From NCBI RefSeq assembly GCF_900091515.1, contig NZ_LT607410.1, forward strand, positions 186,001-250,000: 64,000 nucleotides of DNA, given 5' to 3'. Source of the stretch: Micromonospora purpureochromogenes (GTDB lineage Bacteria > Actinomycetota > Actinomycetes > Mycobacteriales > Micromonosporaceae). Shown here in pieces: positions 12,959-64,000 of the stretch. The translations under genes were made by a program, and so were the position numbers. The first letter of the stretch is position 1. Each line of letters begins with the position of its first letter. The notes beneath the pieces were generated by a model. It was not told where the DNA came from, did not search any database, and worked only from the letters and a program-made list of their open reading frames with translations.

Positions 12959-12984
12959 CCCCCGCCCGGCCCCACCTGCACGCA

Positions 12985-13038: not shown

Positions 13039-13070
13039 AGCGTGGGTCTTCGGGGGTGGGGTGGGGTGGG

Positions 13071-47042: not shown

Positions 47043-48238
47043 GTGCGCGTGAGATCCCTTGTCCGCCTGCTCGCCCTCGGCGTCGCCACCGCCACCCTGC
47101 CCGCCTGCGGCGGGAGCGGGGACGGCGCGGCCCCGGTCGCGCGGTCCACCGTGGAGGCTGCCGCCCCGACGGCGAGCCCGTCGGGCGGACCGACGGCCCG
47201 CAGCGGCCTGGGCGGGCCGGGAAAGAGCGCGTCCCCGAGGCCGTCGAAGACCGCTGGCTCGCCACTGCGGGCGGGCAACCCGAACGGCGGCGCCACGGTC
47301 CCGGCCGAGGCGCGGGCGGTGGCCATCTCCCGTCCGACCAGGACGGTGGGTACGGGTTCCCCGGCGAGCTGTACCTCGGACGCGGTGGTGCGGTCGGTTG
47401 CGGCGGGCGGGATCATCACCTTCGACTGCGGCCCCGACCCGGTGACGATCCGGATGAAGGCCACCGCGAAGGTCCGTAACAAGGTCGGCGCCCGGACCGT
47501 GCTCGACGGCGGCGGCAAGGTCACCCTCTCCGGCGGCGGCGAGCGGCGCATCCTCTACATGAACACCTGCGACGCTGCCCAGGGCTTCACCACCTCGCAC
47601 TGCCAGAACCAGGACCACCCGCAGCTCACGGTGCAGAACCTGACCTTCGCCGACGGCAACTCCACCGGCGAGCGGACCGAGGGCGGCGGGGGCGGCGCGA
47701 TCTTCGTACGCGGCGGTCGGGTCAAGGTGGTCAACTCCCGCTTCACCGGCAACCGTTGCGACCGGACCGGCCCCGACCTGGGCGGCGCGGCGCTGCGGGT
47801 GCTCAGCCAGTACGACAACAAGCCGGTGTACGTGGTGAACAGCACCTTCACGGCGGGGTCTGCGCCAACGGGGCGGCGCTGAGCAGCATCGGCGTCTCCT
47901 GGACGGTGCTGAACAGCGTCTTCACCGGCAACAGGGCGGTCGGCAGCGGCGCCAACCCGGCCCGGTCGGGCACCCCCGGCGGCGGCAGCGGCGGCGCGAT
48001 CTACTGCGACGGCAACGAGTTCACCGTGCGCATCGCCGGCACCCTCATCGAGAACAACCACGCCAACGAGGGCGGCGGCGCGATCTTCTTCGTCAGCAAC
48101 AACCGCACCGGCACCATGCGTATCGAAGGTTCGACCCTCCGCCGCAACCCCAGCGACGGCTTCGAGACCCAGGGCCTCCCCGGCATCTTCTTCCTGGGCG
48201 CCCGCCCACCCACCACCACCTCCTCCCGCCTGAGCTGA
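47043..48238 (+). pseudogene. Secreted right-handed beta-helix lipoprotein, frameshifted
   Basis: Starts at GTG 47043 with a lipoprotein signal (LPACGG), a Ser/Pro-rich linker to about residue 100, and then beta-helix coils with polymorphic-protein motifs (GGGGAIFVRGG, NSRFTGNRC, NSVFTGNRA, GGGAIF). The first frame stops at 47882, while the same beta-helix pattern continues in the frame ending at 48238. The break is near 47850-47856, where acggcggggtctgc would read T-G-G-V-C if one more G were present. So a single-base deletion, or a sequencing error in a G/C run, splits the gene. The total length would be about 398 residues. Function unknown; such proteins are extracellular. Confidence 0.75.
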
Positions 48239-48240
48239 CC

Positions 48241-48311
48241 CGCCCGTCGATCATGAAGTTGTTGCCCGCCGCACCGGCGTGTCGTGACAACAACTTCATG
48301 ATCAACGGGCG
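48241..48311. terminator. 24-bp inverted repeat between convergent genes
   Basis: Arms 48241-48264 and 48288-48311 pair over 24 bp with one mismatch (C opposite A) around a 23-nt loop. Core gatcatgaagttgttg. It starts 2 bp after the beta-helix gene and ends 22 bp before the convergent epimerase stop. Bidirectional terminator candidate. Confidence 0.75.
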
Positions 48312-48333
48312 GTGGAGTGGGAGGAAGGACTGA

Positions 48334-49416
48334 TCAGTAGGGGTTGCCGTGGCCGGGGAGGCGGGTTTTGAGGAGGGCGGCGGGGCGGCCGGGGAGGTCG
48401 GGGGCGGTGGACATGGGTGGGGCGGTGGTGCCGGCGCGGGCGGCCATGCCGGCGAAGAGGTCCTTGAGGGCGGTGAGGGCGTCCACGTTCGGGTGCCAGC
48501 CGAGCTTGGTCTCGGCGCGCTCGCTGGACATCAGCGGCGCGTTCAGGGCCAGCTCCACCCAGCCGACGTCGACGGGTTGCAGTCGGAACCGCCAGCTCAG
48601 CGCGGCGGCGGCGCGCAGCACCGGGGCGGCCACCGGGATCGTCCAGCCCTTGAAGTGCCGGGCCACCAGCTCCGGAGTCAGCACCGGGTCCGCGGCGACG
48701 TTGAAGGCGCCGCGCGCCTCACCCAGAACCGCCCTGGCGTACGCGTCGGCGACATCATCGGCGTGCACCGCCTGCATCCGCAGCCGGCGGTTCGCGGGTA
48801 CGACCGGGATGCGCCCGAAGCGCAGCAGCCGGACCGGGGCGAGCGGCCCGAGGAAGTACCGGGCGATCTCGGTGCCCGCGTCGCGCTGGAAGATCAGCCC
48901 GGGCCGCAGCCGCACCACCCGCACGGTCGGGTGCTCGGATTCGAGGCGGTCGAGCATCGCCTCGACCTCGGCCTTGTCCCGGCTGTACGACGATCCAGGC
49001 ACCCCGGTCGCCGGCCAGCGCTCGCTGATCGGGTGGTCCTTCGGGCCGGGCGCGTACGTGCCGACCGACGAGGCGTACACCAGGCTGGGAACGCCGGCCC
49101 GGACGATGCCCTCGATCACCGCGCGGCTGCCGCCGACGTTGGTCCGGTAGAGCGTGCGCTGGTCGTGGCTGGGCTGGATCTGCCAGGCCAGGTGCACGAC
49201 GGCGTCGGCACCGGCGAAGAGCGCGGCGAGTTTCCCGTCCGCGCCCGGCGCCCCGATGTCGCAGGAGTGCCACTCCACCCGGTCGTACGGCTCACCGGCG
49301 TCCGGGCCGGGCAGTCGCCGAGCCACGCCGACCAGTTCCAGCCCCGACTCCGGGCGCAGCCGGCGCAGCAGCGCCGTCCCCACGTTGCCACTGGCACCCA
49401 CGATGACGATCCGCAT
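48334..49416 (-). CDS. NAD-dependent epimerase/dehydratase family protein
   Basis: 360 residues from ATG 49416, which places the Rossmann motif VGASGNVG at residues 6-13; the longer frame upstream has no support. Active-site pattern SSVGTY and YSRDK. Extended SDR family, acting on a nucleotide sugar or similar; the substrate is unknown. Confidence 0.87.
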   Translation of the reverse strand: MRIVIVGASGNVGTALLRRLRPESGLELVGVARRLPGPDAGEPYDRVEWHSCDIGAPGADGKLAALFAGADAVVHLAWQIQPSHDQRTLYRTNVGGSRAVIEGIVRAGVPSLVYASSVGTYAPGPKDHPISERWPATGVPGSSYSRDKAEVEAMLDRLESEHPTVRVVRLRPGLIFQRDAGTEIARYFLGPLAPVRLLRFGRIPVVPANRRLRMQAVHADDVADAYARAVLGEARGAFNVAADPVLTPELVARHFKGWTIPVAAPVLRAAAALSWRFRLQPVDVGWVELALNAPLMSSERAETKLGWHPNVDALTALKDLFAGMAARAGTTAPPMSTAPDLPGRPAALLKTRLPGHGNPY

Positions 49417-49460
49417 GCGGGCTGCCGTACCCGTTGAACCGGACTCCAACCCCGCAACGG

Positions 49461-49760
49461 TCAGGGGCGGGGCGACTGGCGTACCCAACTCTTCTCCTGC
49501 TTGCGACGGCCCTGGGTGGCGGCCAGGCAGCGCGGGCAGATGAAGCCGACCGGGTCGGCCTCGGTGAGCACGTCGGTCGAGGTGTAGTCGAACGGCACGT
49601 GCGGGAAGCGGCGCAGCCGGGTACGGCTGAGCTGGAGCCCGCAGACGGTGGCGTTCTGGCCGGGCTGCCAGGCGTGCACCTCACCGCCCGGCACCCGTGT
49701 CCCGTCCGGCCCGGTCTCCTCGCTCGACGCCGCCACGGCCGGGGTGCTGCTCATCCTCAT
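49461..49760 (-). CDS. Small Cys/His-containing protein (zinc-ribbon-like)
   Basis: 99 residues (ATG 49760; ATG 49754 possible). Contains HAWQPGQNATVCGL and, later, ICPRCLAA, a His/Cys and CxxC pair that could bind zinc; the spacing repeats a pattern seen in small actinobacterial proteins of unknown role. Basic C-terminus. Confidence 0.6.
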   Translation of the reverse strand: MRMSSTPAVAASSEETGPDGTRVPGGEVHAWQPGQNATVCGLQLSRTRLRRFPHVPFDYTSTDVLTEADPVGFICPRCLAATQGRRKQEKSWVRQSPRP

Positions 49761-49866
49761 CCCGTCCCGATTCCCCCCTCCCGCCGTTTCAGACCCGCCC
49801 GGTTGATCGACTCCGTTTCGCCGACATCGCGCCGTCCCACCCACCCCTCGCCGGACCCGGCGTGGA

Positions 49867-50349
49867 TCACGCGGCGCGCCGGGACACGAGGGCGGCCACC
49901 AGGCAGGCGAAGGCGGCGACGCTGGTCACCGTGCGGACCAGGTTCCACCGCACCCAGGTCGCCTCGAACCTCTCCCGCACCGCCGCCAGGTCGGCGATCC
50001 GGTCCACCGGCCCGGCCGCGTCCAGCCGGTCGTTGAGCGGCACGTTGCACCGCATGGTGATCAGCAGCGTCGCACCGTAGAGCACCAGCGCGGCGACCAT
50101 CCAGGCCAGCACCCGGCCGCCGGCGGTGAGGTGCAGCGCCACCGCCAGGGCGATCAGCAGCACCGCGCCGAGGAAGGCCGCCAGGAACCAGCCGTTGAGG
50201 ATCCGCCGGTTGATCGACTGCATGGTCCCGACGAAGGTCCGGTCATCGACCGCGGCCAGGCCCGGCATGACCGAACACGAGTACGCGAAGAAGAGCCCCG
50301 CCATGAGGCCGGTGACCCCGGTGGCGGCGGCGAGGGAGATCGTTCTCAT
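49867..50349 (-). CDS. DUF1772/anthrone oxygenase-like membrane protein
   Basis: 160 residues, four membrane helices (about 5-27, 52-72, 82-100, 138-155). Motifs GLFFAYSCSVMPGL and VPLNDRLD match the DUF1772 family, which includes fungal anthrone oxygenases. The bacterial role is unknown. ATG 50349. Confidence 0.8.
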   Translation of the reverse strand: MRTISLAAATGVTGLMAGLFFAYSCSVMPGLAAVDDRTFVGTMQSINRRILNGWFLAAFLGAVLLIALAVALHLTAGGRVLAWMVAALVLYGATLLITMRCNVPLNDRLDAAGPVDRIADLAAVRERFEATWVRWNLVRTVTSVAAFACLVAALVSRRAA

Positions 50350-50496
50350 GCCTGTCAGCCTCACCCGGCGCGCCCCTGTTGACCATGGTCGAGAGGCTCG
50401 GGGGCATGCGTGGGCGTCTGGGGTTGTGCGGGGCATCGACGGGCGGGCCGGAAGCCGGAAGGCCTCGCCGGCCAAGGTCCGGTAGCCTGAGGGCTC

Positions 50497-50541
50497 GGGC
50501 CGCTAGCTCAATGGCAGAGCTGTGGACTTTTAATCCGCAGG
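50497..50541 (+). tRNA. tRNA-Lys(UUU), 5' half only
   Basis: GGGCCGC acceptor 5' strand (50497-50503), TA, a D-arm GCTC-AATGGCA-GAGC (50506-50520), and an anticodon arm GTGGA-CTTTTAA-TCCGC (50522-50538) with anticodon TTT, then AGG. After that no T-arm (no GGTTCGA-type loop) and no acceptor 3' strand follow; the sequence changes to aatacgccctcg. So the gene is cut in the variable loop. I find no 3' half elsewhere in the window. It marks a junction with the accessory block to its right. Confidence 0.8.
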
Positions 50542-50953
50542 AATACGCCCTCGTTTCTGAGGTAGACCGTCGCCAAGCAGCCAAAACACTGACACCAGTT
50601 GTCCACTGTGGAAAACAGGCGCTCGATGGGTGCTCATCTGTTTCGGAGCGGTCGAGTGTGGCCACGTCCACCCGGATGCAGTGTTGTCCGACGGTGTCCA
50701 CAGGGACAGGCCGCCCGAGAAGTTGGCGAGTGGTCGAGCCGCGCGCGGACCCCAAGATTCTTCGTAGGATCCGGGGTGCGGTTTCGGGGTGCCGTCCCGA
50801 CGATCAAACCTTCTGATCCGTGGACGACAGGTCAGAGGGTCCAGCTCGGAGCCTTGATCAATCACTGCAACGCGCCCGAGTGCAAGCGCGGCGTGACTGT
50901 CAAGAAGATTCTGACTCCTGTCTGATCGAACGAAACCGATTGCTCTTCCCATC
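50542..50953. other. 412-bp junction DNA without a convincing gene
   Basis: Visibly less GC-rich and different in word use from the flanks (ccaaaacactgacaccagtt, tgtggaaaacag). Open frames on both strands overlap each other here, have poor starts and carry no domain. Probably remnant or flank of an inserted element. No integrase, no IS ends and no second tRNA part seen. Confidence 0.6.
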
Positions 50954-51115
50954 TCAGCTCCCCGACCTGGCTGCAGCCTTCTGCAACTGCTTGAGCCGGC
51001 GCAGCCGCCGGGCCAGTCCGGCCGCGATCTCGTCCGGGTGAATCCCGTCCGCGATCCGGTCCACCACCGCTTGCCGAAGTTCCCGGACCAACAGATCTCG
51101 CACGTCCTCGGACAT
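50954..51115 (-). CDS. 53-residue helical protein of the CHAT/caspase block
   Basis: ATG 51115 with GGGGTCG upstream, 11 bp after the inactive CHAT gene. Acidic N-terminal helix (SEDVRDLLVREL) and a strongly basic C-terminal helix (RRLRRLKQLQKAA), a charged two-helix unit. No family recognised. The end of the operon, next to the junction DNA. Could be an adaptor or a cleavable partner; inference only. Confidence 0.55.
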   Translation of the reverse strand: MSEDVRDLLVRELRQAVVDRIADGIHPDEIAAGLARRLRRLKQLQKAAARSGS

Positions 51116-51126
51116 GTCGACCCCGA

Positions 51127-54075
51127 TCAGCGGCCGCTGTAGGCCAGCGCCGCCCACAGGGCCGGCCGGGTCAGGTCGGTCGCGGTGACGGTGCTCAGGT
51201 GGGCGCCGGGCAGGTAGGGCGGGACGATCCGATCGGGGTCAAGCATCCACCGTTGCACCACGCCGACCGCCTCCGCCGGTGGTCGCCGACCGTCGACGAG
51301 CTCCAGGTGGACCAGGAAGAGCGCGAGCGCGGCGAACGACGCCGGCACAGCCCAACGCCAGCCGATCACCCCGGTGAACCCGACGTCGAGCAGCGCCGGC
51401 ACGAGGTCCGACCCGCCCGGGGCGGAGAGGACGACCAGGCCACGGGCACCGCTGACCGACGCCAGGTCGAGCACTTCTCCGCCGGCCAGTTGCAGGGCCG
51501 TCCCGTCCAGTCCGCACGCGAGATGCAGGACGGACGCTGCGGCCAGGTGCTTGCGTACGTCCTCCGGCCCACCCACCGCGTCGACCGGCTCCAATGCTCG
51601 GCCGAGACAGACCGACCTCGGGTAGAACAGCCGCCGCAGAACCATGACCTCAGCCATCGCGGCGTCCCGGTCGCCGCGCGGGTTGACCACGAACACCGGC
51701 TCGTCCGTCAGCGGCGGAACGGACCGCGCGGCCAACCGGACGACGTGTGTGCCGGACGGGACGTCGGTGATGCCGATCTGCTGGCCCAGTCGACGGCCGT
51801 CCCCGGCGCACACCGCACCCAGGCCCACCCGGCTCAGTCCGCCCGTCGCGGCCACCAGGAGGCGCCCGGCGGTCCACCGGCCGAGGATCGCCGGCCAACC
51901 GGGATCGTCCGAGACGAGCGGATCGGTAACCGGGAGGTTCGCGAGCACGTCGAGCTGACCGGTCGCCGGATCGAGGCAGAGCACCCCGGCGGTCAGCCCG
52001 GCATCGTCGGTCGAGTGCACATAGAGCAGGGCACCCGCGCCGATCTCGCGGACCGCGGCGGCGACCTCGGCCGGAGTGGGCACGCTCGCGATCGGCGCCT
52101 CAGGCGGCACGACTCCGACGAGGACCGCCAGCACGTCGCGGGTCAGCGAGTCGGCCCCGGCCCGCTTCGGTGCGACCGCGGCGATCTCCAACGCGGTGAA
52201 CGCCTCCGCCCCCCGGCCCTCCGCGAGCATCCATCCGGCGAAACGGGCCGCGTCGGCCGGGTCGACGTCCGGGCCGTCCAGCGCGTTCCGGCCGGCGTCC
52301 CGGCACCGTTCGGTGTCGCCGGCGGCACCCCGCCGCCGGTACGCCTCGGCGAGCCGCCACCAGGTCCGGGTGCGTAGGCCGCCCTCGTCCAGCAGCCGAA
52401 CGACACCGGCCAGCAGGGTGATCGCGCGGTCGGGGTCGTCGCCCAGGCGTAGGCGAGCCGCGGCGAGAACGGCCCGGGTCGGTGGTGACGACCGGTCGGC
52501 GGCGGCGTCGAGAGCCATCCGGAGATCGGCCGGATCGTGACGAAGCAGCGCATCGAGCACCGCGGTGAGATCGCCGCCACTGCCCGCGCTGCCCGCGGCC
52601 GGGGAGCAGTTGTGCACCGCGGCGGCGAGCCGGGCGTGCGCGGCGGCCGTACCGAGCGGGCCCCGCCAGGGATGACCGGCCGGCAGGGCGGCCACGGCGG
52701 CGAGTGGGTCCGGATGGCTCAGGCTACCGGAGTGCAGCGCGGTCACCGTCCGGCACAGTTCGGCGAGCGCGCTCACCACGGGCGGCCGGGATTCGATCCG
52801 TTCCGCGTACGACAGCAGGTCGTCCGCGATCTCGGCGATGGCGCCCGACAGCGGCCGGGTCTCGTCCAGCAGACCACCGGCCGCTTCCACGATCGTGACC
52901 GCGGCGGGATGGCCGGGTGGTACGTCCCTCATCGCGGCCAGGAGGTGTCGCGCGGCGACCCGGCGGGCGTCGCCGCCGGCGTCCTCGTCGTCCCAGCCGC
53001 TGCCGTCGCGCCGCTCGCGAAGGCACAGCCCGACCACCGACAGCAGCCGGTCGAGGCCCAGTTCGACCGGGTCCCCACCATCCTGCGCGTCGACCGCGCT
53101 GGCCGTCGCCCCGACGAAGGCGTCCAGGGCGGCGGGCTCGATCTCGTCCGGACCGGCCAGCAGCATCGTCAGGGCCTGCTCCCAGACCGGCCGTTCGCGG
53201 TCGAGGGCCAGCGCCGCGAGTTGCTCCCGGGCGACCCGGCGGGCGAAGGCCGGCTGCGTGCTGGTTGCCGCTGCGGTCGCCGTCGGCGTCCCGGTCGCCG
53301 GAGTGGGGCGTCGTGGCGGCACCACCGGGGCGGACTGTCCGTCGCCGCGCATGACGGTGACCGGATAGTCCAGCGGATCGGCCATGTTCGCCTGGTTCCA
53401 CAGGTTGATCGGCAGGCCGTTGCGCTGCAGGTCCTGCAGCCGGGACATGGCGTCGATGATCCTGCTCAAGTCGAAGTTGGCGACGTCACCGCCGAGCAGC
53501 GGGTGGATCGACTCGGCCACGACCAGCATGGTGCGGACCATGCTGGTGACGTCGGTGCTCAGGACCGGCCCGGCGAGCAGTTCCCGGAACAGCCGCGCCG
53601 CCTCGTCGGCATCCTGGGCCGCGCCCGACAACCCCCCACCGAGGAAGCCGCTGCGCGCGGCAGCCGGGCTCATCGCCTCCGTGGCCCGGGCCAGGTGTAG
53701 CTGACCCAACGCGATGCGAGCCATGGCTGCCTGCATCGGTGGCAGGTTGGTGAACCTGGTCGCCTCGGTGAGCACGAAGATGCCGGTGTCCCGGTCCCTC
53801 GGCCCGCTGCCGTGCGCACTGTGCCGGGCCGACAGTAGCCAGCCGAGCTGGACGGCCACCTGGCCGCGGGCCGGGTCGCCGGGGTCGACCAGCCGGTAGG
53901 CCTCGTCCCACGCCTCGATCGCGGCGGACAGGAGACCGAGTGCCGCGGGCCGCCCCGGTCCGGTCCGCCAGTAGTTCGTGGCCAGCGCCTGCCCGAGCTG
54001 GGTCAGCTTCGGCAGCCGGGCCGGGCCGGTGACCCGGGACAGCTCGTCCCGGAGCCGCTCGATGGAGTCCTGCAT
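51127..54075 (-). CDS. CHAT-domain protein lacking catalytic His and Cys
   Basis: 982 residues. A long helical, TPR-like N-terminal and middle part (to about 680), then a CHAT-like domain (about 690-982). The histidine motif, normally LHLASHG, reads LHLACGLDG (about 848-856), and the cysteine motif, normally LSACxTG, reads LSAPGGSD (about 881-888). Both active residues are replaced, so this should be a pseudoprotease. A low-complexity Thr/Ala linker (TPTATAAATSTQ) near 265 separates two helical parts. It follows the active CHAT gene by 22 bp. A scaffold or regulator of the active protease is plausible. Confidence 0.8.
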   Translation of the reverse strand: MQDSIERLRDELSRVTGPARLPKLTQLGQALATNYWRTGPGRPAALGLLSAAIEAWDEAYRLVDPGDPARGQVAVQLGWLLSARHSAHGSGPRDRDTGIFVLTEATRFTNLPPMQAAMARIALGQLHLARATEAMSPAAARSGFLGGGLSGAAQDADEAARLFRELLAGPVLSTDVTSMVRTMLVVAESIHPLLGGDVANFDLSRIIDAMSRLQDLQRNGLPINLWNQANMADPLDYPVTVMRGDGQSAPVVPPRRPTPATGTPTATAAATSTQPAFARRVAREQLAALALDRERPVWEQALTMLLAGPDEIEPAALDAFVGATASAVDAQDGGDPVELGLDRLLSVVGLCLRERRDGSGWDDEDAGGDARRVAARHLLAAMRDVPPGHPAAVTIVEAAGGLLDETRPLSGAIAEIADDLLSYAERIESRPPVVSALAELCRTVTALHSGSLSHPDPLAAVAALPAGHPWRGPLGTAAAHARLAAAVHNCSPAAGSAGSGGDLTAVLDALLRHDPADLRMALDAAADRSSPPTRAVLAAARLRLGDDPDRAITLLAGVVRLLDEGGLRTRTWWRLAEAYRRRGAAGDTERCRDAGRNALDGPDVDPADAARFAGWMLAEGRGAEAFTALEIAAVAPKRAGADSLTRDVLAVLVGVVPPEAPIASVPTPAEVAAAVREIGAGALLYVHSTDDAGLTAGVLCLDPATGQLDVLANLPVTDPLVSDDPGWPAILGRWTAGRLLVAATGGLSRVGLGAVCAGDGRRLGQQIGITDVPSGTHVVRLAARSVPPLTDEPVFVVNPRGDRDAAMAEVMVLRRLFYPRSVCLGRALEPVDAVGGPEDVRKHLAAASVLHLACGLDGTALQLAGGEVLDLASVSGARGLVVLSAPGGSDLVPALLDVGFTGVIGWRWAVPASFAALALFLVHLELVDGRRPPAEAVGVVQRWMLDPDRIVPPYLPGAHLSTVTATDLTRPALWAALAYSGR

Positions 54076-54097
54076 GGCGCTACCGCCCTTCGGTCGG

Positions 54098-56500
54098 TCA
54101 CTGTCCCCAGTGGGTGAAGCCGGCCCACGCCACCACCCGCGCCGGGTCGGTGTCCGCGAGCATGCGACGCAACGGGCGCGGCATGGTTCGGGGCGGCTGC
54201 CGATCGCCGTCGAGCATCCACATCTGCGCCCGGCGCAGTGCGTCCCAGACAGCGCGGTGCTCGGTCGTCAGGAAATGGTGGAACATGTACATGAGCAGCG
54301 AGGTGTCCTGATCGGGAATGCTCCACTGGGTGGAGAGCACCGAGCGGGCGCCCGCGGCCAGAAACATGGTGCCCAGGCTGTACGCCTCGTCGTACCCGTG
54401 GATCGAGCGGCCGGTGTGGCAGGCGGCGAGCACGACCAGCGCGATCGGGTGCCGGTCCGGACCGGCCAGCAGCGCGATCAACTCGTCCGCGGTGAGGTCC
54501 CCGCCGGCCAACAGCAGACGCGACGACGCCGAGGCACGAGCCGTCTCGATCACGCCGTGCGACGCGAGGTGCAGCATCGTGCCGGCCTGGGCGTCGTCGG
54601 CGAGCAGCCAGGAGCGTACGTCGTCGGGCGTGCCCGCCCCGGAGGGGCTGACCTTTCCGTTCGGCCACCGGCCGAAGTAGGTGGCCGCGGGATAGAACGA
54701 CTGGTGGATCCCGTAGGCCTCGAGACGCGCCGAGCGCAGGTCGGCCGCGCGCCGGCCGGTGTCCGGGTCGGCCAGCACCATGCCGCCCGAGCTCAACCGG
54801 ACCGGCTCGGCCGCGGCCGTGTCGCAGAACATCCGGGCGGACGCGGCCTGGGAGAGTGCAACCCGCTCCACCAGGTAGGTCCCGCCCGGGTCGCGGGCCG
54901 CCTGCCATGGCACCCGGGCCAGGTCGCCCATCGGGATGAGCACGAGACGTGGCACGCGATCGGCGCCGAGGAACGGCTTGACCAGCGGCCCCATCGCGGC
55001 CTTCCACGCCCAGCCACACAGCGCGTCGACCCGGTCCGCGAACTCGGCCGGATCGTCCACCCCGACCTCTCGCGTCGTCAGTTCGGGGGAGCGGCTGGCC
55101 ACAGCAGTCAGGTACCGCTCGACATCGGTGCCTTCGCCGACGGTGAGATTCGGCAGGGCCAGGAACCACGGTTCGCCCTCGGCCGGGGCGATCACCGCCC
55201 AGCCCGGTGCCGGCGGGTCGGCCGGTACGAGATAGGCCAGCGCGTCCACGCCGAGCCGGCGTAGGGCGTCCCGGATCTCGTCGAGGCCGGGCGGGTCGAG
55301 CAGCCCGGTGTCGCGTGCCAGGACCTGCAGGACATCCTCCCGTAGCCGGGGGTCCGGGGTGTCCGTCGCCCGCCACCGGGCGGCCAGTTCCGGGTGGCCG
55401 GCCGCGGTGAGCCGCGTGCCCGGGTCGCGCAGCTCCGTCGCGGCGAACAGCATCAGGGCGCGTCCGCCGTCCAGCGCCCGGAGCGCGTCCTCGGGCTGCT
55501 GGTCCACCAGGCATCGGCCGGCGGCGGCGATCGCCTCGGTGGCCGCCTGCCGGGCGACGGCGCGCGCGGTGGCCGGGTCGGGCTCCAGCAGCACCCGCCA
55601 GGCGTATCCGCGCAGCCCCTCGAGCGTGGCGAGCCGGGCGGGCGACGCCTCGCCGATTCGGCGCCGCAACTGGCCGAGCAGGCCGGTGATGTACGACCAG
55701 TACTGGTTTTCCGGACCACCGGCCAGTTCCCGCGCCCGCTCCAGTACGGTGACCGCCTCGCCCACGTCGGACAGCGAGCCGGTGACCTCCGAGCGGTGGT
55801 TCAGGCCCAGCGCCAGCGACGCCAGGTGGAAGACGTGATCCGGATGGTGGTCCAGGGTGAGAGACACCGCCTCGCGCAGATCGGCGATCGCCGCGGCGAT
55901 CCTGGCCGGGTCCCGTTCGTCGCCCATCCGCAGGGTCGTGCCGCCCCGGGCGTTCAGGTAGACGGCACGTTCCGCGTCCGAGGACCCGGCGCGCGGCGGC
56001 GGCAACGCGCTCGCCTCACCACGCGATGCCGCCTGCAGTGCCTGCAGCATCGGCATGATCTCGGCCACCGACTCGCGCAGCAGGTTGCCCTGCGGCAGTT
56101 CGTTCATCCGGCCCGCCAGGTCGACGAGCATCGCCATGGCGGTCTCGGTATCCCCGCCCTGTTGGATCTGTAAGGCGTTCAGGTAGTCCGGCAGCAGTCC
56201 GAGAAGCTGGTTGCCCTCCGGGTGGCCGGCAAGCATCTCGCCCAGCTCGGTCAGCGACGCACGGAGCCGGCTCCCGTCGCCGATCGTGTATCCGGCGGCC
56301 AGTTCCAGGCCGTTGCGGGCGGCCTCGGCCAGCGCCTTGACGTGGGGGTCACCGCTGTGTTCCGCGATTACCCCGTCGATCTCGGCCATGGCCGCCCGGG
56401 GGTCGGTCATGGTCCGGTCCGCGGCGGCCTGCAGCACCCGCTGGACCCGGGCGATCCCGCGCATCCGTCGGGCGACGTTCGTCTCCTCCGGCCGGCTCAT
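54098..56500 (-). CDS. TPR-like/CHAT-domain cysteine protease
   Basis: 800 residues. Helical repeat region (about 1-350), linker, and a CHAT domain (about 420-800) with intact catalytic motifs LHLASHG (His near 647) and LAACHTG (Cys near 693). CHAT proteases are caspase-clan (CD) enzymes, including the Csx29 protease of type III-E CRISPR and activators of bacterial gasdermins, where cleavage of a partner triggers the response. ATG 56500 with a purine-rich GGAGGGAGG stretch upstream. It lies 27 bp after the sigma-like gene. Confidence 0.9.
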   Translation of the reverse strand: MSRPEETNVARRMRGIARVQRVLQAAADRTMTDPRAAMAEIDGVIAEHSGDPHVKALAEAARNGLELAAGYTIGDGSRLRASLTELGEMLAGHPEGNQLLGLLPDYLNALQIQQGGDTETAMAMLVDLAGRMNELPQGNLLRESVAEIMPMLQALQAASRGEASALPPPRAGSSDAERAVYLNARGGTTLRMGDERDPARIAAAIADLREAVSLTLDHHPDHVFHLASLALGLNHRSEVTGSLSDVGEAVTVLERARELAGGPENQYWSYITGLLGQLRRRIGEASPARLATLEGLRGYAWRVLLEPDPATARAVARQAATEAIAAAGRCLVDQQPEDALRALDGGRALMLFAATELRDPGTRLTAAGHPELAARWRATDTPDPRLREDVLQVLARDTGLLDPPGLDEIRDALRRLGVDALAYLVPADPPAPGWAVIAPAEGEPWFLALPNLTVGEGTDVERYLTAVASRSPELTTREVGVDDPAEFADRVDALCGWAWKAAMGPLVKPFLGADRVPRLVLIPMGDLARVPWQAARDPGGTYLVERVALSQAASARMFCDTAAAEPVRLSSGGMVLADPDTGRRAADLRSARLEAYGIHQSFYPAATYFGRWPNGKVSPSGAGTPDDVRSWLLADDAQAGTMLHLASHGVIETARASASSRLLLAGGDLTADELIALLAGPDRHPIALVVLAACHTGRSIHGYDEAYSLGTMFLAAGARSVLSTQWSIPDQDTSLLMYMFHHFLTTEHRAVWDALRRAQMWMLDGDRQPPRTMPRPLRRMLADTDPARVVAWAGFTHWGQ

Positions 56501-56527
56501 CGATGTCCGCCTCCCTCCGTTCGCCTC

Positions 56528-57541
56528 CTACGGTTCTGACGGACGATTGCGCCGACCGAGCAGGTCGACGATGGTCGCGACGATGTGGTCCAACCGCTTC
56601 CGGTCGCTGATGAGGGCGGCTACCCGGTCCGGGTCGACCGGGTCCTCGCCCGGGGAACGGCCCAGATCATGCTCGGTGGTCAGCTCGCCGAAGACCGTGG
56701 TCAGCACGTCCGTGACCAGGATGTGAAGGTCCTCGCCGGCCTTCATCCGCCGTTCCAGGAGATCGATCGCGCGGGCGGCCAGCTCCTGCAACAGCGAGTC
56801 GTCCTTTTCGTGTTGGGCCACCAGAGCGAGCGGCTCGGACTCCGGGTGACCGGCCGAGAATGAAACCGGTGCCTGCTTGCGGCCGAGCGGTGCTTCCACC
56901 GTCCGCTCGTACCATCCGGGTCGGCGCCGCATCGCGGCCAGGACGACCTCCACCTCGGCGGAGACCGCCGACTCGCCGCCGTGGTGGTCGCCAGTGAACC
57001 CGGCACGCCGCTCGGCCCAGGCGGCCAGCGGCCACAGTGAACCGCCGGCGCTGGTGTCGGTGCCGACCCAGTCGAGGATCAGTCTGGCCAACTCGACCAA
57101 CCACGGATCGTCGCCGAGCGCGGTGACCAGGCACTTGGGCACGCGCGGACGTTGCGGAGCCCCGCGCTCGCCCCGGCGCCGGCGGTAGCCGTCGACGGTG
57201 GCGCGCTGCATCCACCGGACCAGCCAGCCTTCGAGGTTTTCGATCGGCACGTCGGCGTGGGCGAAGAGGTCGTCCAGGACCGCCTCGACATCGTGGTGAA
57301 ACCGGTCGAGGCAGTCCGGGGCGAGCCAGGGCACGCCCTTGGCGCACACGTGGTGGCGCCTGCGCTCGATCGGTTGGGTGATCCGCAGGAAGACGAGCTG
57401 CCAGGCGATCTCGAAGGCGCCGGTGCGGAGCAGTCGGCGCTCCTCGGCGGACGCGTTCCAGAAGTACTGGGCCAGCCGTCCCTGTCGAGCCAGCTCGCGG
57501 ACCCGGTCCGCGTTGGCGGACTGCTTCTGGGAATCTGCCAC
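56528..57541 (-). CDS. Sigma-region-2-like protein, paralogue A
   Basis: 337 residues from GTG 57541 behind AGGAGG. Residues about 40-135 resemble sigma-70 region 2: helical, ending in EGWLVRWMQRATVDGYRRRR, like the ECF region 2.4 pattern. No region 4 HTH is visible; instead there is a unique domain with PLGRKQAPV (about 220) and a helical C-terminus. A paralogue starts beyond 64000. It may be a divergent sigma factor or an adaptor derived from one. Moderate confidence in the fold, low in the function. Confidence 0.7.
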   Translation of the reverse strand: MADSQKQSANADRVRELARQGRLAQYFWNASAEERRLLRTGAFEIAWQLVFLRITQPIERRRHHVCAKGVPWLAPDCLDRFHHDVEAVLDDLFAHADVPIENLEGWLVRWMQRATVDGYRRRRGERGAPQRPRVPKCLVTALGDDPWLVELARLILDWVGTDTSAGGSLWPLAAWAERRAGFTGDHHGGESAVSAEVEVVLAAMRRRPGWYERTVEAPLGRKQAPVSFSAGHPESEPLALVAQHEKDDSLLQELAARAIDLLERRMKAGEDLHILVTDVLTTVFGELTTEHDLGRSPGEDPVDPDRVAALISDRKRLDHIVATIVDLLGRRNRPSEP

Positions 57542-57633
57542 GACAACCCTCCTACCTCGACCTTTGCCCCGATGTTCGGGGCCGGAGCGAGGCGCGGGGA
57601 GGTGCCGGCGGCGAGATACCAGAGATTACGTAC

Positions 57634-57662
57634 GGCGGCCCGCACGATACGTACGGGCCGCC
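57634..57662 (-). terminator. Hairpin between the 74-residue gene and the sigma-like gene
   Basis: GGCGGCCCG and CGGGCCGCC form a 9-bp stem with an 11-nt loop, 9 bp downstream of the small gene's stop. It would separate the small protein, and perhaps the caspase, from the sigma-like/CHAT genes as a terminator or attenuator. No T-run. Confidence 0.5.
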
Positions 57663-57670
57663 GGTGGGAC

Positions 57671-57895
57671 TCAGGACATCTGGCTGGGACGCGGCTCTCC
57701 GTGCGGGTCGAACACCACGAAGGCCGCGGCGGCACCGTTGAGGTAGACGGTGACCGGCCGCCGCTCCTTGTCGTAGAGGCGGAGCTGGACCGTGGTGCGG
57801 TTGACCATCGCGTCCTCGACGGCACCGGACACGGCGAGCGCATCCTCGTCCGCGACCGACCACTCGGACTGGTCGATGATGAGCTTCTTGTCCAT
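57671..57895 (-). CDS. 74-residue protein between caspase and sigma-like genes
   Basis: ATG 57895 with GGAAGG upstream. Acidic N-terminal half (SEWSVADEDALAVSGAVED), then a beta-rich half (TVQLRLYD, PVTVYLNG, AAFVVFD). Small enough to be one domain; no Cys. I do not recognise it. The constant position among protease and sigma-like genes suggests a partner, inhibitor or substrate. Confidence 0.65.
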   Translation of the reverse strand: MDKKLIIDQSEWSVADEDALAVSGAVEDAMVNRTTVQLRLYDKERRPVTVYLNGAAAAFVVFDPHGEPRPSQMS

Positions 57896-57934
57896 GCGGT
57901 TTGGATCCTTCCGGTGATGTGGATGGGTGTACGG

Positions 57935-60421
57935 TCAGGTCACCTCGTCGACGGTGAACGTGAACGAGAAGTCCTGCGGATGCCGCTCGTGGCGGCCGAT
58001 GCCGAACTGCTCCTGGGCCAGCAGCGAGGTGCGGTACAGCCCGATGCTCGGGCCCACCACGCCGGTGAGCAGCTCGTAGGCGGTGTTGACCAGGACCGCT
58101 CCGGCGCCCGCCACGGCGACCGCCACGGCCGCGTGCGGGGCGGTCAGCGCCAGCTCGGCCACCCGGAGACCGGCACCCTGCACCGCCGGGCTCGTGAGCC
58201 GCTGCTCGAGCAGCGCGCTGAGGGCGAGGCTGCCGCTGGTGTCGCGGGAGACCCACACCGCGATGTCGAGGAAGTCGACCGCCGGACCGTGGTAGATCAG
58301 CACGTTGTCGAGCGGGAGCCGCTCGTTGTCCCGTACGTTGCTGAACCGCATCGTCGCCGCCCGGTAGACCGGCTGCGTACCCGATCCGCCGGTGAGCACG
58401 ACCGCGTCCACCCGAACATCGGCGCTGCCCAGGGCTCGGTTACGGTGCACAATCAGGTCGGCGATGCGGACCGCCACCTGGATCGGCGTCGTGCCGCGCG
58501 GCGCCAACAACCGGATCGGCTGGGCTGGGCGGTCGTCGACGAGGAACGTCGCCCGCTCGGTGATCGGTGGGGGGGTCGGGCTGACGGTGAAGTCGATCGG
58601 CTGAATCGCGTAGCGGACCTGGGACGCGGGTGCGTCGCCGATCTCGCGGCTCACCCCGTAGGCGATCTGGGCGAGCAGGTTCTCCAGCCCCGACCGGACC
58701 CGACCGTCGCGGAGCCCCCGCTGCTGGAACACCGAGACGTCCACCGGACCGTCACTGATAAGCACCAGGACCGTCTCGGGTCGTGGTACCGCCGGATCGA
58801 TACTGTCCGGCCAGGTCATCGGCACACCGGTCAACAGCCGCCGGTCGGAGTTCCAGCCGTGGGTGTAGGACGCACCTGGCGCCAGCCTGATGCCGCCGGG
58901 GTCGGACTGGGTCAGAACGGCGATCCGGGAGGAGATGCCAATGTCGATCAGCGACACGTACACCGCGCGGTCGCCCTCGTTACGCAGCCGGAACCAGATG
59001 CGTTCGTGGGACTGGGTGAACAGCAGGCTCCCGGTGAGCTCGAGTGGCTCCTCCCGCCCGTCGCGCACCCGCCCCCACTCGACGCGTACGTCGTGCCGGA
59101 GCGGCCGGTCCGGGTCGCCGGTCAACCGCCGCAGCGCGCTGGCCTGGGCGATCCGCTGGAGGTTGGTGGCGATCGCGGCGATGTCGGCGCGGGTCGCCGG
59201 TCGGGGCGCGTGCAGCGGGCCGTAGTCGTCGCGGATGACGAGCCGGCCCTGCTCGTCCGCCACCACCTCGACGGCCGGCCGGGTGTCCGGGTCGGCCGGT
59301 CGCAGCATGGTCCGGGCGGCCAGCGCCTCGATCAGGTCGGCGGTCGCCGGGTGGTCGGCCGGCAGGCGTACCGGCATGGCGGGCGCGGCCGCGCGGACCC
59401 GGCGCGCCCGCGCGCCCGGCGGCAGGGGCTGCCCGGCGATCTCGGGCGGCAGCTCGGCGACCGCCGCGGTGGGCAGCAGTCGGGTGACCGAGACCATCCC
59501 GAGGTCCGCGCCGTCGGCGCCGATCGCGAACTCGTCGCCGACCTCGACCCCGAGCAGCGGCGCGCCGAGAAGCTGGATCCGGGCCGTACCGTCGGCCGTC
59601 ACCGGCAGCGTGTCCAGCGGATCCAGTTCGGTCACCTCGAACGGCACCCGGCTCGACGGCCCCTCGGCCTCGGGTCGCTGGGTGAAGGCGATCGCCTGCA
59701 CCTGGCGACGCACGGCTTCCATCAGGGTCGACCAGTTGACCCGTAGCCCGTCCGCCTCACGCAACGCCCGGGTCAGCGCGTCGGTGAGCAGCCCCATCTG
59801 GACGCCGTCGCGGTTGGTGTCCTCGAACGCCGCCTCGGTCGGCGCGCACGCGACCACCCGGACCGCCCGGTCGCTGCCGATCAGCGGGCGTCGGTCGATC
59901 GGCAGGCCGCCGGCGATGAGTCCGTGGACGTGCCGCTCGACGCTCTCGTACGTCGGCTGCCACTGTCCCGGCGCCGCCCGAAGCAGCGCCCGCACCCGTG
60001 GCCCGGACTGCCGGGACATGTGAGCGGCGTGACAGCAGTCCAGCACCACGGTGACGTTCGGTGCGCGTTCGGTCAGCCGGGCAAGCAGCACGGACAATTC
60101 GGGGTCGGTGATGCCCCGGAAGTCGTCGTCGTTGGAGTCCGAGTAGTCGTCCGGGACGATGAACTGGATGATTCGTCCGTCCGCCCCCTGGATGCGGCCG
60201 CCGTGGCCGCTGTAGTAGACGACGAACGCTTCGTCCGGGGCGGCGTCGGCGATGAGCTTCTCGTACGCGTCGAGGATTCCCGCCCGGGTGGCCTACGGCG
60301 TCACCAGCGGCTGGACGGCGAAGCCGCGCGCCCTCAGGGTCTGCGCCATCGCCTCGACATCGTTGCGGACTCCGGTGAGACCGTGGGTCGCTGCGCCAAT
60401 CAGGAGTGCCTTACCCGTCAT
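57935..60421 (-). pseudogene. Caspase-like (C14) protease with one in-frame TAG
   Basis: Reading from ATG 60421 gives 42 residues (KALLIGAATHGLTGVRND, the first strand and helix of a caspase fold), a TAG at 60295-60293, and then 785 uninterrupted codons. The catalytic His (YYSGHGG, about 73) and Cys (LDCCHAAH, about 130) are both after the TAG and intact. No ATG, GTG or TTG lies between the TAG and codon 109, so a downstream start would lose the His. After the protease domain come a DUF4384-like beta domain (about 455-540) and a C-terminal part with an Ala/Val-rich segment (about 765-790). Either a nonsense mutation, a sequencing error, or amber readthrough. Confidence 0.8.
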
Positions 60422-60461
60422 GCCCATCTCTGACGGACAGCCCGTGGCCGGGCTTGAGTGC

Positions 60462-63320
60462 TCAGTCGAAGAAGTGTTCCTCGCGGGCCCGGGTAATCGC
60501 CTCGACGGCGGTGTGCACATCGAGTTTCTTGTACACCCGGGCCAACTGGGTCTCGGCCGTCCGCTTCGCCACGCCCCGCTGGCTCGCGATCCGGGCCACG
60601 TCACTGCCCTGATAGAGCAGGCGGAGAGTGTGCAGCTCGGCGGGGGTCAGGTTGTACGGAAGCCGAGCGGGCGCGGGGCGATCGGCCAGGTCCAGGTCGG
60701 CTTTGCGGGCTAGCGTCCGCACCCGCTCGCGCAACGGGGTGGCACCGAGTTCCTTCGCCGTCTGGTAGGCGATGCGGGCCGGCTCCCGGGCCCCGGCCCG
60801 CTCGCCGGCCCGCAGCGCGGCCTCGGCCTGGCGCCACCGGGCGTACGCCGCCGGGAATCGTCGGTCCAGCGCCGCCCATCCGTCGGCCACCTGGCCCCAG
60901 ACCCGGGCGGTGTCGGTTCTGCGGATACGCCGGCGTTCCGCCGCCAGCAGCCTCGCCAGTTGGGTGGGTTCCTTCTCCACCGGTGCGCGCACGGCTTCGC
61001 CTGCCAGCAGGGCGAGTCGATCACCGACGTCCGCCGCCTCCTGGTCTGCCGCGCAGCGCATACCGACCGCGCACAACCGCAGCAGCTCCAGGGTGTTCTC
61101 ACCCTTGCGCACCGCGGCCAACCCCCGGGCCACCTCCGCCGCCGCGCGGGTCAGCTCGCCCTCCTCGATCGCCAGCTCGGCGCGGATCGCGTGCAGCGGC
61201 CCGAGGAATCGCGGGTCGGCGCCGTGCTCCACGTCGTCGATCGAGGCGAGCAACTCGCGCGCTCGCCGGAGATCGCCACGGTGCACCTGTATCTCGGCGA
61301 GCGTGAGGCGGGGATAGAGGCTTTCCGCCGGGCGCAGATCCTGGATCGCCTCCGTGATGATCCGTTCGGCGTCGTCCCACTCGCCCAGCAGCACCAGCGC
61401 GGCGCTGGCGTTGTTGGCGACGATGGTGCTCTGCCGGCTGCCGGTCAGGCCGAGCCGGCGTGCCTCGTCCAGCCCGTCCCGCGTCACTTCGGCGGAATCA
61501 CGCAGCCTCCCCGCGTGCTCCAGGATCAACCCCAGATTTCCGTAGGCCCGGAGAAGGTCCTCGATGTGCGCGGCCGACCGGGCGACCTCGATGGACCGGC
61601 GGAGCCGAACCTCGCCCTCGGGGTCACCCAGCATGCCGCGGGCGAGCCCGGAGACGTTGAGCGCGCGGCCCTCCTCGGCGTGCGCCCCCACCTCGATCGC
61701 CATGCTCAGCGCTTCGTCGGCGGTCTCTCTGCCCTCCTCGTAGCGGCCGGCTTGGAGATGGGCGAGGGCGATGCCGGCCAGCACCCGGACCTGCGCGGCC
61801 GACGGCGGTCGGTCGGCCAACAGGTGCGCCGCGTCGCGGAACGCCGCAGCGGAGTCGGCCCATCTGCCCGCCTCGGCCAGGTAGTTGGCCCGCCGCTCGT
61901 GCAGCTCGCCGAGCTGCCCCGGGTCGCCGCCGTGGTCCGGGGCGTCGATGGCCTGCTCGACCAGATCGACGGCTCGGTCGACACGCCCGGACCAGCGCGC
62001 GGCCTCGGCCGCCTCGGCGAGCAGTCGTGATCGGGTCATCCCGGCCCGCGCCTCGGCGTCGTCGACCCGATGCCACAGTTGCAGGGCCCGGTCGAACTGC
62101 AGATCCGCGGAGGAGAACGCCAGTGTGCGGGCGGCGGCCTGACCGGCCGTGACCGCGTACGTCAGCGCCTGCGGCCACACTCCCGCCCGGTACCAGTGGA
62201 TCGCCTGTTCGGCCGCGGCCGAGCTTTCGGTCACGCACATCCGGGAGTCGGCGGCCAGCGCCTCCGCCATCGCGACGTGCAGTTCGACGCGAACATCAGG
62301 GGCGGTCTCCTGCAGGACCGTCTCGCGCAGTAGTGCGTGGTGGAACCGGTACGTCCCCTGGCCAACGCTGAGTATCTGGTGGTCGACGCACTCATGCAGC
62401 GCGTCCCGCAGGGTTTCGGCAGGCATGCCGCTGACCGCGTGCAGCAGTTGCCGGCTCATCGCGCGACCGGCCACGGCCGCGGTCTGCAGTACCCGGAACG
62501 CGTCCTCGGTCAACTGGCTGAGGCGGCCGAGCATCATCGACCGGATGTCGGGCGGCAGCGCGATGTCCTCGTCCCCGCCGGCCAGTGCGCCGGTGGCCAT
62601 CAACTGTTCGGCGTAGAACGGAATCCCGTCGGACAGCCGCAGGCACCGCTCGGCCAGTCGGCGGTCGACCTCGCCGAGCAGTTCGCGCATCTCGTCGAGG
62701 GTGAAGGGCCGCAGCTCGAAGCGGTCCGTGCGGCGCATGAACGTGGCACCCCCGAACAGTCGCCACAACGGGTGCGCCCGCCCCACCGGCCGGTAGCTGC
62801 CGACCAGCAGCACCCGGCGATCCTCCGCGCGGGTCTGGGCGAGGTGCCGCACCAGGTCGAGCGTGGACGGGTCGGCCCAGTGCAGGTCCTCCAGGATCAA
62901 CACCACCGGGGCGTCCGTCGCGATGTGGTCCAGCATCCGGCGCACCGCGAGGAAGACCTGCAAGGGTACGCCCATCGAATCATTGCCGAGGTCGAAGAAG
63001 GCGGTCAGTTTCCGGTACGCCGGGCCGCCCAACTCGGTGGCCCCGCTCTCGCCGTACTCCAGGCCGAAGGTGTCCAGTGCCTCGATCAGCGGCCCGTACG
63101 GCATGGGATCGCCGAAGTGTTCCTCGCACGCCCCGGACAGCACGTGGATGCCGGTCACCCGGGCCCCGCGCAGAAACTCGCTCAGCAGCCGCGTCTTGCC
63201 GAGGCCCGGCCCGCCGCCGACCAGCACCGTCCGGGCAGCGCCGTCGCGGACCTCGGACAGCCGCCGCCTCAACCGTTCCAGCTCGTTCGGGCGGCCGACG
63301 AACGGCGACTCCTCTGTCAC
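60462..63320 (-). CDS. STAND ATPase with TPR-like repeats and LuxR HTH
   Basis: 952 residues (GTG 63320). ATPase with Walker A GGGPGLGKT (35-43) and Walker B LILEDLHWAD (about 150), helical repeats (about 350-860), and a C-terminal LuxR HTH (about 885-945; LTPAELHTLRLLYQGSDVA). A LAL/MalT-type signal-dependent activator. Its start overlaps the sigma-like paralogue B stop (GTGA) and it ends 40 bp before the caspase gene, so it is the likely sensor and transcription activator of the block. Confidence 0.9.
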   Translation of the reverse strand: MTEESPFVGRPNELERLRRRLSEVRDGAARTVLVGGGPGLGKTRLLSEFLRGARVTGIHVLSGACEEHFGDPMPYGPLIEALDTFGLEYGESGATELGGPAYRKLTAFFDLGNDSMGVPLQVFLAVRRMLDHIATDAPVVLILEDLHWADPSTLDLVRHLAQTRAEDRRVLLVGSYRPVGRAHPLWRLFGGATFMRRTDRFELRPFTLDEMRELLGEVDRRLAERCLRLSDGIPFYAEQLMATGALAGGDEDIALPPDIRSMMLGRLSQLTEDAFRVLQTAAVAGRAMSRQLLHAVSGMPAETLRDALHECVDHQILSVGQGTYRFHHALLRETVLQETAPDVRVELHVAMAEALAADSRMCVTESSAAAEQAIHWYRAGVWPQALTYAVTAGQAAARTLAFSSADLQFDRALQLWHRVDDAEARAGMTRSRLLAEAAEAARWSGRVDRAVDLVEQAIDAPDHGGDPGQLGELHERRANYLAEAGRWADSAAAFRDAAHLLADRPPSAAQVRVLAGIALAHLQAGRYEEGRETADEALSMAIEVGAHAEEGRALNVSGLARGMLGDPEGEVRLRRSIEVARSAAHIEDLLRAYGNLGLILEHAGRLRDSAEVTRDGLDEARRLGLTGSRQSTIVANNASAALVLLGEWDDAERIITEAIQDLRPAESLYPRLTLAEIQVHRGDLRRARELLASIDDVEHGADPRFLGPLHAIRAELAIEEGELTRAAAEVARGLAAVRKGENTLELLRLCAVGMRCAADQEAADVGDRLALLAGEAVRAPVEKEPTQLARLLAAERRRIRRTDTARVWGQVADGWAALDRRFPAAYARWRQAEAALRAGERAGAREPARIAYQTAKELGATPLRERVRTLARKADLDLADRPAPARLPYNLTPAELHTLRLLYQGSDVARIASQRGVAKRTAETQLARVYKKLDVHTAVEAITRAREEHFFD

Positions 63321-64000
63321 CTGTCACCTCCCGGCCCGGGTCCGTCCATTGTGCCCGCCGGCAGCACTTCCCAGACCACGGCCACGATCCGGTCCAGTTC
63401 GCCCGCGTCGCGCAGCACCAGCGCGAGCCGGTCGTCGTACGCCCGCCCGGTCGGCCCGCCCCCGGTGTCGGTGCCGAACACCGTGTTCAGCACCTCGGCC
63501 ACCACCGTGCGTGCCGGCTCACCCCGGGCCAGCCGGGCCCGGATCAGTTCGACGGCACTGTGTGCCAGGGCGGTGAGGAGCCGCTCGCGCTCGGCGTACG
63601 CGTCGGATGGCGTCTCGGTCCGGTCGTCGGCCTGCTCCGTCGAGGCGACCGGGGCCTGTTTGTGGCCGAGCGGCGTCTCGACGTACCGCTCGAACCACCG
63701 CGGCCGGCAGCCCATCGCCCGCAGCACGGCCCGGATGTCGGCCTGCACCTCGGCCTCCCCGTACGACCCGCCGGCGTGTCGTTCGCAGCGCCGCGCCACC
63801 CAGCTTTCGGTTGGCCACAGGTCGTGGCCGGCGGTGACCGGCGTGCCCACCCAGACGAGCATCTGGGTGGCCAGGTCGATCAGCCAGGCGTCGCCGTGCA
63901 ACTCGGCGGCGAGCCAGGCCGGCACCCGGGGTCGCTGAAGCGCGCCGTACGCGCCGCGCCGCCGACGATGTCCGTCGACGGTGGCCGGAACCAGCCGGCC
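63317..64000 (-). CDS. Sigma-region-2-like protein, paralogue B (5' end outside window)
   Basis: The C-terminal 227 residues are visible. At the window edge it reads ATVDGHRRRRGAYGALQRP, matching ATVDGYRRRRGERGAPQRP of paralogue A, followed by the shared LWP, PRWFERYVETPLGHKQAPV and helical tail. The end of the sigma-like region 2 is just at the edge. Overlaps the STAND-LuxR start by 4 bp. Two divergent copies in one block imply distinct partners or promoters. Confidence 0.75.
   Translation of the reverse strand, partial: GRLVPATVDGHRRRRGAYGALQRPRVPAWLAAELHGDAWLIDLATQMLVWVGTPVTAGHDLWPTESWVARRCERHAGGSYGEAEVQADIRAVLRAMGCRPRWFERYVETPLGHKQAPVASTEQADDRTETPSDAYAERERLLTALAHSAVELIRARLARGEPARTVVAEVLNTVFGTDTGGGPTGRAYDDRLALVLRDAGELDRIVAVVWEVLPAGTMDGPGPGGDR

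Follow-up and report, generated by a model that had tools for sequence, protein, structure and literature searches.

In type III-E clustered regularly interspaced short palindromic repeat (CRISPR) systems, the CHAT protease Csx29 cleaves Csx30, an inhibitor of CASP-sigma, and this cleavage relieves the inhibition of the sigma factor, according to the available part of the source (PMC10028731). A second point of reference is the NTPase-centered conflict systems of multicellular prokaryotes (VMAP/iSTAND/FtsH/GAP1-N2/EACC1) described by Kaur et al. in 2020 (PMC7159879) and 2021 (PMC8195603); within the available parts of these papers, an actinobacterial kinase-PP2C-vWA theme occurs in the former and caspase (EACC2) systems with an extracytoplasmic function (ECF) sigma factor occur in the latter. 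Here, we describe a minus-strand gene cluster at the end of a 64,000-nucleotide stretch of Micromonospora purpureochromogenes DNA (the window; positions 186001 to 250000 of C1, the single contig of the 6.67-Mb genome G000). The cluster was brought to attention by an earlier note, made from the sequence of the window, which listed an active CHAT protease, an inactive CHAT paralogue, two sigma-like proteins, a STAND-LuxR ATPase, and two small proteins; these genes and their motifs were borne out. That the parts form a real, dedicated system is, in our judgment, almost certain. The best overall explanation, which we consider slightly less likely than not, is a dedicated, patchy chromosomal protease-signaling system of filamentous actinobacteria, composed of three cassettes (A, B, and C), in which the sigma-like protein (SIG) is predicted to be proteolytically controlled. 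No published account of this gene set was found in the literature searched, subscription papers and preprints being outside its scope, in keeping with the earlier note, whose author knew of no described system with this exact set.

The features of the cluster, by position in the window, are as follows.

50954..51115, minus strand: S53, a 53-amino-acid (aa) helical protein after CHAT2, placed by homology; a candidate SIG partner whose family adjoins SIG genes.
51127..54075, minus strand: CHAT2, a 982-aa pseudoprotease (PF12770, E = 1.9e-10) that has lost the catalytic His and Cys.
54098..56500, minus strand: CHAT1, an 800-aa CHAT protease (PF12770, E = 4.6e-49) that keeps His and Cys.
56528..57541, minus strand: SIG1, 337 aa, sigma-region-2-like at residues ~8 to 127, with a helical C-terminal part.
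57633..57663, minus strand: hairpin (14-bp inverted repeat) between two cassettes, a possible terminator or processing site.
57671..57895, minus strand: S74, a 74-aa DUF3107-like protein with a conserved C-terminal tail (RPS[EQ]MS or RPTEIS type).
57935..60427, minus strand: CASP, a caspase-family gene (Peptidase_C14) of 830 codons with one in-frame TAG at 60293 to 60295 (codon 45).
60462..63320, minus strand: STAND-LuxR, 952 aa, with AAA_16, a tetratricopeptide repeat (TPR)-like part, and a GerE helix-turn-helix (HTH) of the LAL type; its start overlaps the SIG2 stop by 4 nt.
63317..64000, minus strand: SIG2, a second sigma-like protein of 335 aa, extending 324 nt past the window (249317 to 250324 in the genome; L004:318-1325).

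In the direction of transcription the order is SIG2, STAND-LuxR, caspase, S74, SIG1, CHAT1, CHAT2, and S53, with successive intergenic gaps of -4, 34, 39, 129, 27, 22, and 11 nt, so that the tight spacing noted earlier holds (-4 to 39 nt) apart from the 129 nt between S74 and SIG1. As the hairpin, with its 14-bp stem, sits inside this gap, STAND-caspase-S74 and SIG1-CHAT1-CHAT2-S53 may be two separate transcription units. The limits of the block, first given as 50497..64000, were revised at both ends. The gene caller, a codon-usage script, made no call between 50350 and 51126, and the start was set at 50954 because S53 was located there by homology; at the other end, SIG2 and eight further families continue past the window edge. 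The part that the window cuts off is supplied by L004, a stretch of the same genome running past that edge. The next 13 kb encode a kinase and coiled-coil, Clp-like, FHA, radical-SAM, two membrane-like, and OmpA-like proteins (L004:1771-13157), and these genes are part of the same system in five other genera. We define cassette A as STAND-LuxR ATPase, caspase, and DUF3107-like S74; cassette B as SIG, active CHAT1, and pseudoprotease CHAT2 with a small helical S53/S64 protein; and cassette C as the Ser/Thr kinase, coiled-coil protein, Clp-like ATPase, FHA protein, radical-SAM enzyme, two membrane-like proteins (c33 and c39), and OmpA-like protein. The labels membrane-like (c33 and c39), TPR-like (the N-terminal part of CHAT1), and coiled coil are judgments made by eye from the sequence. 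In the window genome, all 14 families lie within ~25 kb, in rearranged order.

To place the cluster among genomes, SIG homologues were searched for; 264 were found, of which the best 120 were listed, and the closest named relatives as judged by SIG1 were Micromonospora. A 41-row SIG profile yielded 73 loci, taken from the best 80 of 93 stretches encoding a relative. Genes were called by codon usage in these loci, the window, and L004 (75 call sets) and were then clustered. Adjacent same-strand pairs were STAND-CASP in 22 sets, CASP-S74 in 21, CHAT-CHAT in 21, and SIG-CHAT in 17, with median gaps of 43 nt for STAND-CASP, 33 nt for CASP-S74, and 43 nt for SIG-CHAT. Using phmmer on the 73 loci, STAND, CASP, and S74 were found together in 18, CHAT1 in 24, all six core families in 12, and at least two of four cassette C families in 11. 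Five loci, from Actinokineospora (L064), Amycolatopsis (L069), Lentzea (L070), Saccharothrix (L073), and Actinocrispum (L078), share one gene order on one strand: c33, OmpA-like, kinase, coiled coil, Clp, FHA, c39, radical SAM, SIG, CHAT, CHAT, STAND, caspase, and S74. All five contain 13 of these families, and S74 was called in four; the L078 locus, in which it was not called, stops 122 nt past the caspase call. These genera belong to the Pseudonocardiales, an assignment looked up for three of them and presumed for the other two. The core cassettes are also present in Kribbella (Propionibacteriales, L011) and Catenulispora (Catenulisporales, L045). The genera named among the SIG loci are, we take it, filamentous.

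A survey of 81 Micromonosporaceae genomes, in which the initial screen was capped at 25 candidates per genome for SIG, 71 for S74, and 20 for the coiled-coil protein, identified SIG in 21 and a caspase gene in 50. Among SIG matches above 300 bits, to which the distance count was confined, 14 of 27 had a caspase gene within 10 kb, compared with 0.17 expected under uniform placement. The synteny check proposed for the family of the gene at 56528 to 57541 thus found the neighborhood with CHAT and caspase genes to recur. S74 was found in 11 of the 81 genomes: each of the nine strong hits has a SIG gene on its contig no more than ~7 kb away; another hit, in G023, lies less than 1 kb from a caspase gene; and the remaining one, in G010, is weak and maps elsewhere. 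In a phylum-wide draw of 296 genomes, S74 was present in five, the two strong hits being the window genome and one of the same genus. The coiled-coil protein of cassette C occurs in six of the 81 genomes, and the five strong hits (G000, G003, G018, G049, and G067) all fall within the nine genomes with strong S74 hits, from which it follows that cassette C accompanies cassettes A and B even when unlinked; in G049 and G067 the coiled-coil gene lies at another place, ~3 kb from CHAT genes. The small open reading frames (ORFs) of the helical S53 family are likewise linked to SIG, with 44 of 62 lying within 600 bp of a SIG gene where 8.0 were expected. This count follows removal of the duplicates L007/G017 and L017/G060, which reduced SIG genes from 103 to 100 and small ORFs from 65 to 62; the S53 profile was built from the same SIG-centered loci and favors nearby hits only insofar as those loci were searched. 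A chance neighborhood of unrelated genes is refuted by the recurrence in four orders (Micromonosporales, Pseudonocardiales, Propionibacteriales, and Catenulisporales), and the proximity of SIG to caspase and to S53 and the co-occurrence of the coiled-coil protein with S74 also speak against it; we give it practically no credence.

The same distributions bear on the idea that the cluster regulates development or stress responses in the mycelium and is not a conflict system; in that case membrane proteins, kinase, and Clp would monitor the state of the envelope or of nutrients, and the proteases would switch gene expression. The cluster is chromosomal and large, it includes kinase/FHA and OmpA-like parts, and its carriers are presumably filamentous, all of which suit such a role. 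However, SIG and S74 are patchy within a single family, and S74 is sparse across the phylum, which argues against a core developmental module, since such a module would be expected to be steadier. We consider this alternative distinctly improbable.

The two CHAT proteins differ in a consistent manner. CHAT1 carries the catalytic motifs LASHG and AACH, whereas CHAT2 has a CHAT domain in which both residues are missing. Across 19 system pairs, CHAT1 kept His and Cys in every case; of the partners, 10 had a CHAT domain lacking both residues, eight had no alignable CHAT domain, and one was cut by the end of the locus, so all 10 CHAT2 domains that could be judged lack His and Cys. Among the 120 listed SIG homologues, one (P0066) also contains, as a fusion, the N-terminal TPR-like part of CHAT1 (E = 4.9e-18). 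A third CHAT gene of the window genome lies far from the cluster, at G000:C1:2170777-2171634 within a 1,375-aa frame. The only NCBIfam match of CHAT1 was Csx29 (E = 1.4e-5), which, with a sigma-like partner present, could suggest that the cluster descends from the type III-E Craspase lineage (TPR-CHAT plus sigma) as a non-CRISPR offshoot. Against this, the match scored 24.2 bits where the cutoff is 300, no direct-repeat family (at least 21 bp, within 150 bp) was present in the 30 kb scanned for a CRISPR array (window positions 48000 to 64000 and L004 positions 1 to 14000), and NCBIfam detected no other CRISPR-associated family among 10 locus proteins. Such descent is very hard to credit.

SIG1 and SIG2 are the only two sigma-like paralogues found in the window genome by the SIG profile. 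In the predicted model, the N-terminal domain of SIG1 adopts a sigma-region-2-like fold, in agreement with the nature first ascribed to the two proteins. Pfam scans gave no match for SIG1 or SIG2, Sigma70_r2 included, and PF04542 was matched by 3 of 41 family members, at best with an E value of 1.5e-5. Profile comparison showed a WL..R motif shared in register by SIG and sigma factors, and a strongly basic motif is kept after the sigma-2 helix in the 41-member alignment. The sources of the listed homologues label this family almost only as hypothetical. Residues E59, H63, C66, and C77 of SIG1 are invariant in the 41 homologues, with H63, C66, and C77 located where the first long helix ends and beyond it; the four residues are perhaps a metal or redox site. 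K222, which edges a low-confidence linker (predicted local distance difference test score below 50 at residues 227 to 239), is a possible cleavage site, against which stands its invariance in all 41 aligned members irrespective of nearby proteases. Three further leads were set aside. A PDB sequence search with the SIG profile returned 11 weak matches, all to ribosomal protein S8, which were taken as chance; a supposed homology of the 53-aa family to the C-terminal hairpin of SIG, where the best alignment falls, had a score (14.3) within the range of 60 column-shuffled controls (maximum, 15.8; mean, 9.3); and comparison gave no support for the 322-aa c4 protein as a SIG relative.

CASP is the sole Peptidase_C14 gene found in the window genome, by a whole-genome search reading through stops (E = 1.9e-20 with one TAG); the separate pieces on either side of the TAG fall under the Pfam cutoff. 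Of the caspase-like protease first reported, the gene stands, with its GHG and DCC motifs both present 3' of the TAG, whereas the break in its reading frame had gone unnoticed. Since no in-frame ATG, GTG, or TTG occurs from the TAG to 60097, a stretch that includes the GHG motif, the downstream ORF (720 aa) is without the catalytic His. Proteins of Micromonospora sp. strains NPDC050980 and NPDC049151 (92 to 93% identity, 828 aa) continue across the TAG site, and among the caspase matches listed in the 81 genomes an internal stop was seen only here and in one from G035; the TAG may be decay or a sequencing error. The likeness of S74 to DUF3107 is below the Pfam cutoff, with 7 of 20 members matching at an E value of 1 or less (best, 0.011), and its conserved tail is an extension beyond the DUF3107-like part. 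A genuine DUF3107 gene, separate from S74, lies at G000:C1:1307857-1308075 (L154) and is likely a housekeeping cousin. STAND-LuxR combines AAA_16 (E = 1.5e-28) with a LuxR-type GerE HTH (E = 8.4e-8), the pairing of LAL regulators. The AAA protein of cassette C is AAA_2 with ClpB_D2-small in Pfam; in PADLOC it resembles DolB (1.1e-19) and weakly mad8 (8.2e-4), and the kinase resembles mad6 (1.8e-29).

STAND ATPases act as signal switches, FHA domains recognize phosphothreonine, Clp-type ATPases remodel proteins, and CHAT proteases cleave specific partners. The gene team, which recurs in many filamentous soil bacteria, resembles an alarm or cell-fate system under protease control. In the proposed scheme, a signal of threat or stress would be sensed by STAND and/or by the membrane plus kinase/FHA/Clp layer and would license a CHAT1-CHAT2 heteromer and the caspase, of which S74 would serve as regulator or substrate; cleavage of SIG, or of a small SIG partner, would alter the access of SIG to RNA polymerase and so would change both transcription and hyphal-compartment fate. 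Proteolytic control of SIG is plausible, and a protease-gated sigma-like output is a possibility that we put forward a little more guardedly than the overall explanation. The earlier note, which had proposed such a release of a sigma-like regulator, is partly confirmed in its observation and partly supported in its interpretation. More specifically, SIG could be a sigma-2-only split factor held by S53/S64 in a complex with the active/pseudo CHAT pair; in this CRISPR-independent relay, the kinase, FHA, and Clp-like parts would arm the complex, proteolysis by CHAT1 would free SIG, and another protein would supply the DNA-binding half, for example the LuxR domain of STAND or, in protease-free loci, the divergently encoded c4 protein; this full version is unlikely. 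If true, the relay would make protease-gated transcription a recurring design in filamentous bacteria beyond CRISPR, one whose conserved pseudoprotease and dedicated small partner are open to immediate testing, and would give functional context to a DUF3107-like protein and a sigma-2-like family.

Several observations weigh against proteolytic control of SIG within a single three-cassette system. Sigma region 4 was not found in SIG by Pfam, profile comparison, or the structure rows, which cover mainly residues 1 to 128, and the SIG profile aligned with the 10 sigma factors of the window genome in register and weakly (E = 0.014; probability score, 3.1). In 33 of the 73 loci SIG stands alone, the other query families being absent at 30 bits or more; SIG is therefore not bound to proteases. 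Both members of the tandem CHAT pair in L028 have both catalytic residues, the second being of another CHAT subfamily, and the window genome has no intact CASP frame. Cassette C is beside A and B in two of eight Micromonosporaceae stretches (G000 and G003), the sixth coiled-coil hit (G015) is weak and in a genome without SIG or S74 matches, and a one-sequence query with 20 candidates scored per genome did not find the coiled-coil protein in three genomes that have A and B (G075, G017, and G060). The chief rival is a cell-death (abortive) effector system, in which CHAT1 and the caspase would cut many host proteins after a STAND/kinase trigger and SIG, rather than regulating transcription, would act as an adaptor or scaffold whose sigma-2 fold is borrowed. 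The failure to detect region 4 favors it, as do the position of the SIG gene directly before CHAT1 and the single fusion of SIG to the N-terminal part of that protein; the conflict-system logic proposed in the available part of Kaur et al. 2020 (PMC7159879) also fits a locus with two cysteine proteases, a STAND ATPase, and a kinase/Clp layer. However, the basic motif after the sigma-2 helix is kept, SIG occurs without proteases as expected of a regulator, and the STAND protein has a LuxR DNA-binding domain. We regard cell death as possible and less than probable.

SIG also has neighbors outside the three cassettes. The 322-aa c4 protein (27 loci, e.g., L021:8854-9822 and L055:8820-9788), with an HTH-like stretch seen by eye, is encoded divergently from SIG at a distance of no more than 600 bp in 22 of the 27; the one member scanned gave no Pfam family above the cutoff, and c4 is a possible DNA-binding partner of SIG. 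A Crp-type regulator, c7 (cNMP_binding plus HTH_Crp_2; e.g., L012:16344-17039), was seen in 16 loci, and in 13 of these it lies within 1 kb of SIG. In L028, L038, L052, L053, and L068, SIG is near a vWA, PP2C, kinase, radical-SAM (uncalled in L028), and Clp-like set, which is another regulatory context of the family.

In comparison with known systems, the locus resembles type III-E Craspase (Cas7-11/Csx29/Csx30/CASP-sigma), as far as the available part of that source goes (PMC10028731), in encoding a TPR-CHAT protease with a sigma-like protein and in the possible protease control of transcription. It differs in having a STAND ATPase, a caspase, a pseudo-CHAT, and a kinase/Clp/radical-SAM cassette instead, with no Csx30 recognized, a SIG without detected region 4, and a CHAT1 short of the Csx29 cutoff. 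With the systems of Kaur et al. it shares a STAND ATPase, caspase, kinases, and radical SAM, whereas the available parts of both main texts (PMC7159879 and PMC8195603) do not name the CHAT domain and CHAT1/CHAT2, SIG, S53, and S74 are constant here; Pfam scans of the locus proteins gave no vWA or MoxR match that would indicate a MoxR AAA plus vWA pair, no EACC- or GAP1-specific search having been made. SIG resembles ECF and sigma-70 factors in its modeled region-2 fold and WL..R motif and departs from them in the missing Pfam match and region 4 and the invariant H63, C66, and C77. STAND-LuxR is like MalT-like LAL regulators in its AAA_16 ATPase, TPR-like part, and C-terminal LuxR HTH, and unlike them its gene stands 34 nt before a caspase gene. 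S74 is set apart from DUF3107/Rv3208A by its subthreshold match and extra conserved tail. For the 10 locus proteins scanned, NCBIfam and PADLOC matches were at the domain level only; those of the Clp-like protein and kinase to Dodola (DolB) and MADS (mad6 and mad8) reflect common ATPase and kinase folds, with no other part of either system among the 10. We class the locus as a variant of the NTPase-protease signaling systems that belongs to no single one of those compared.

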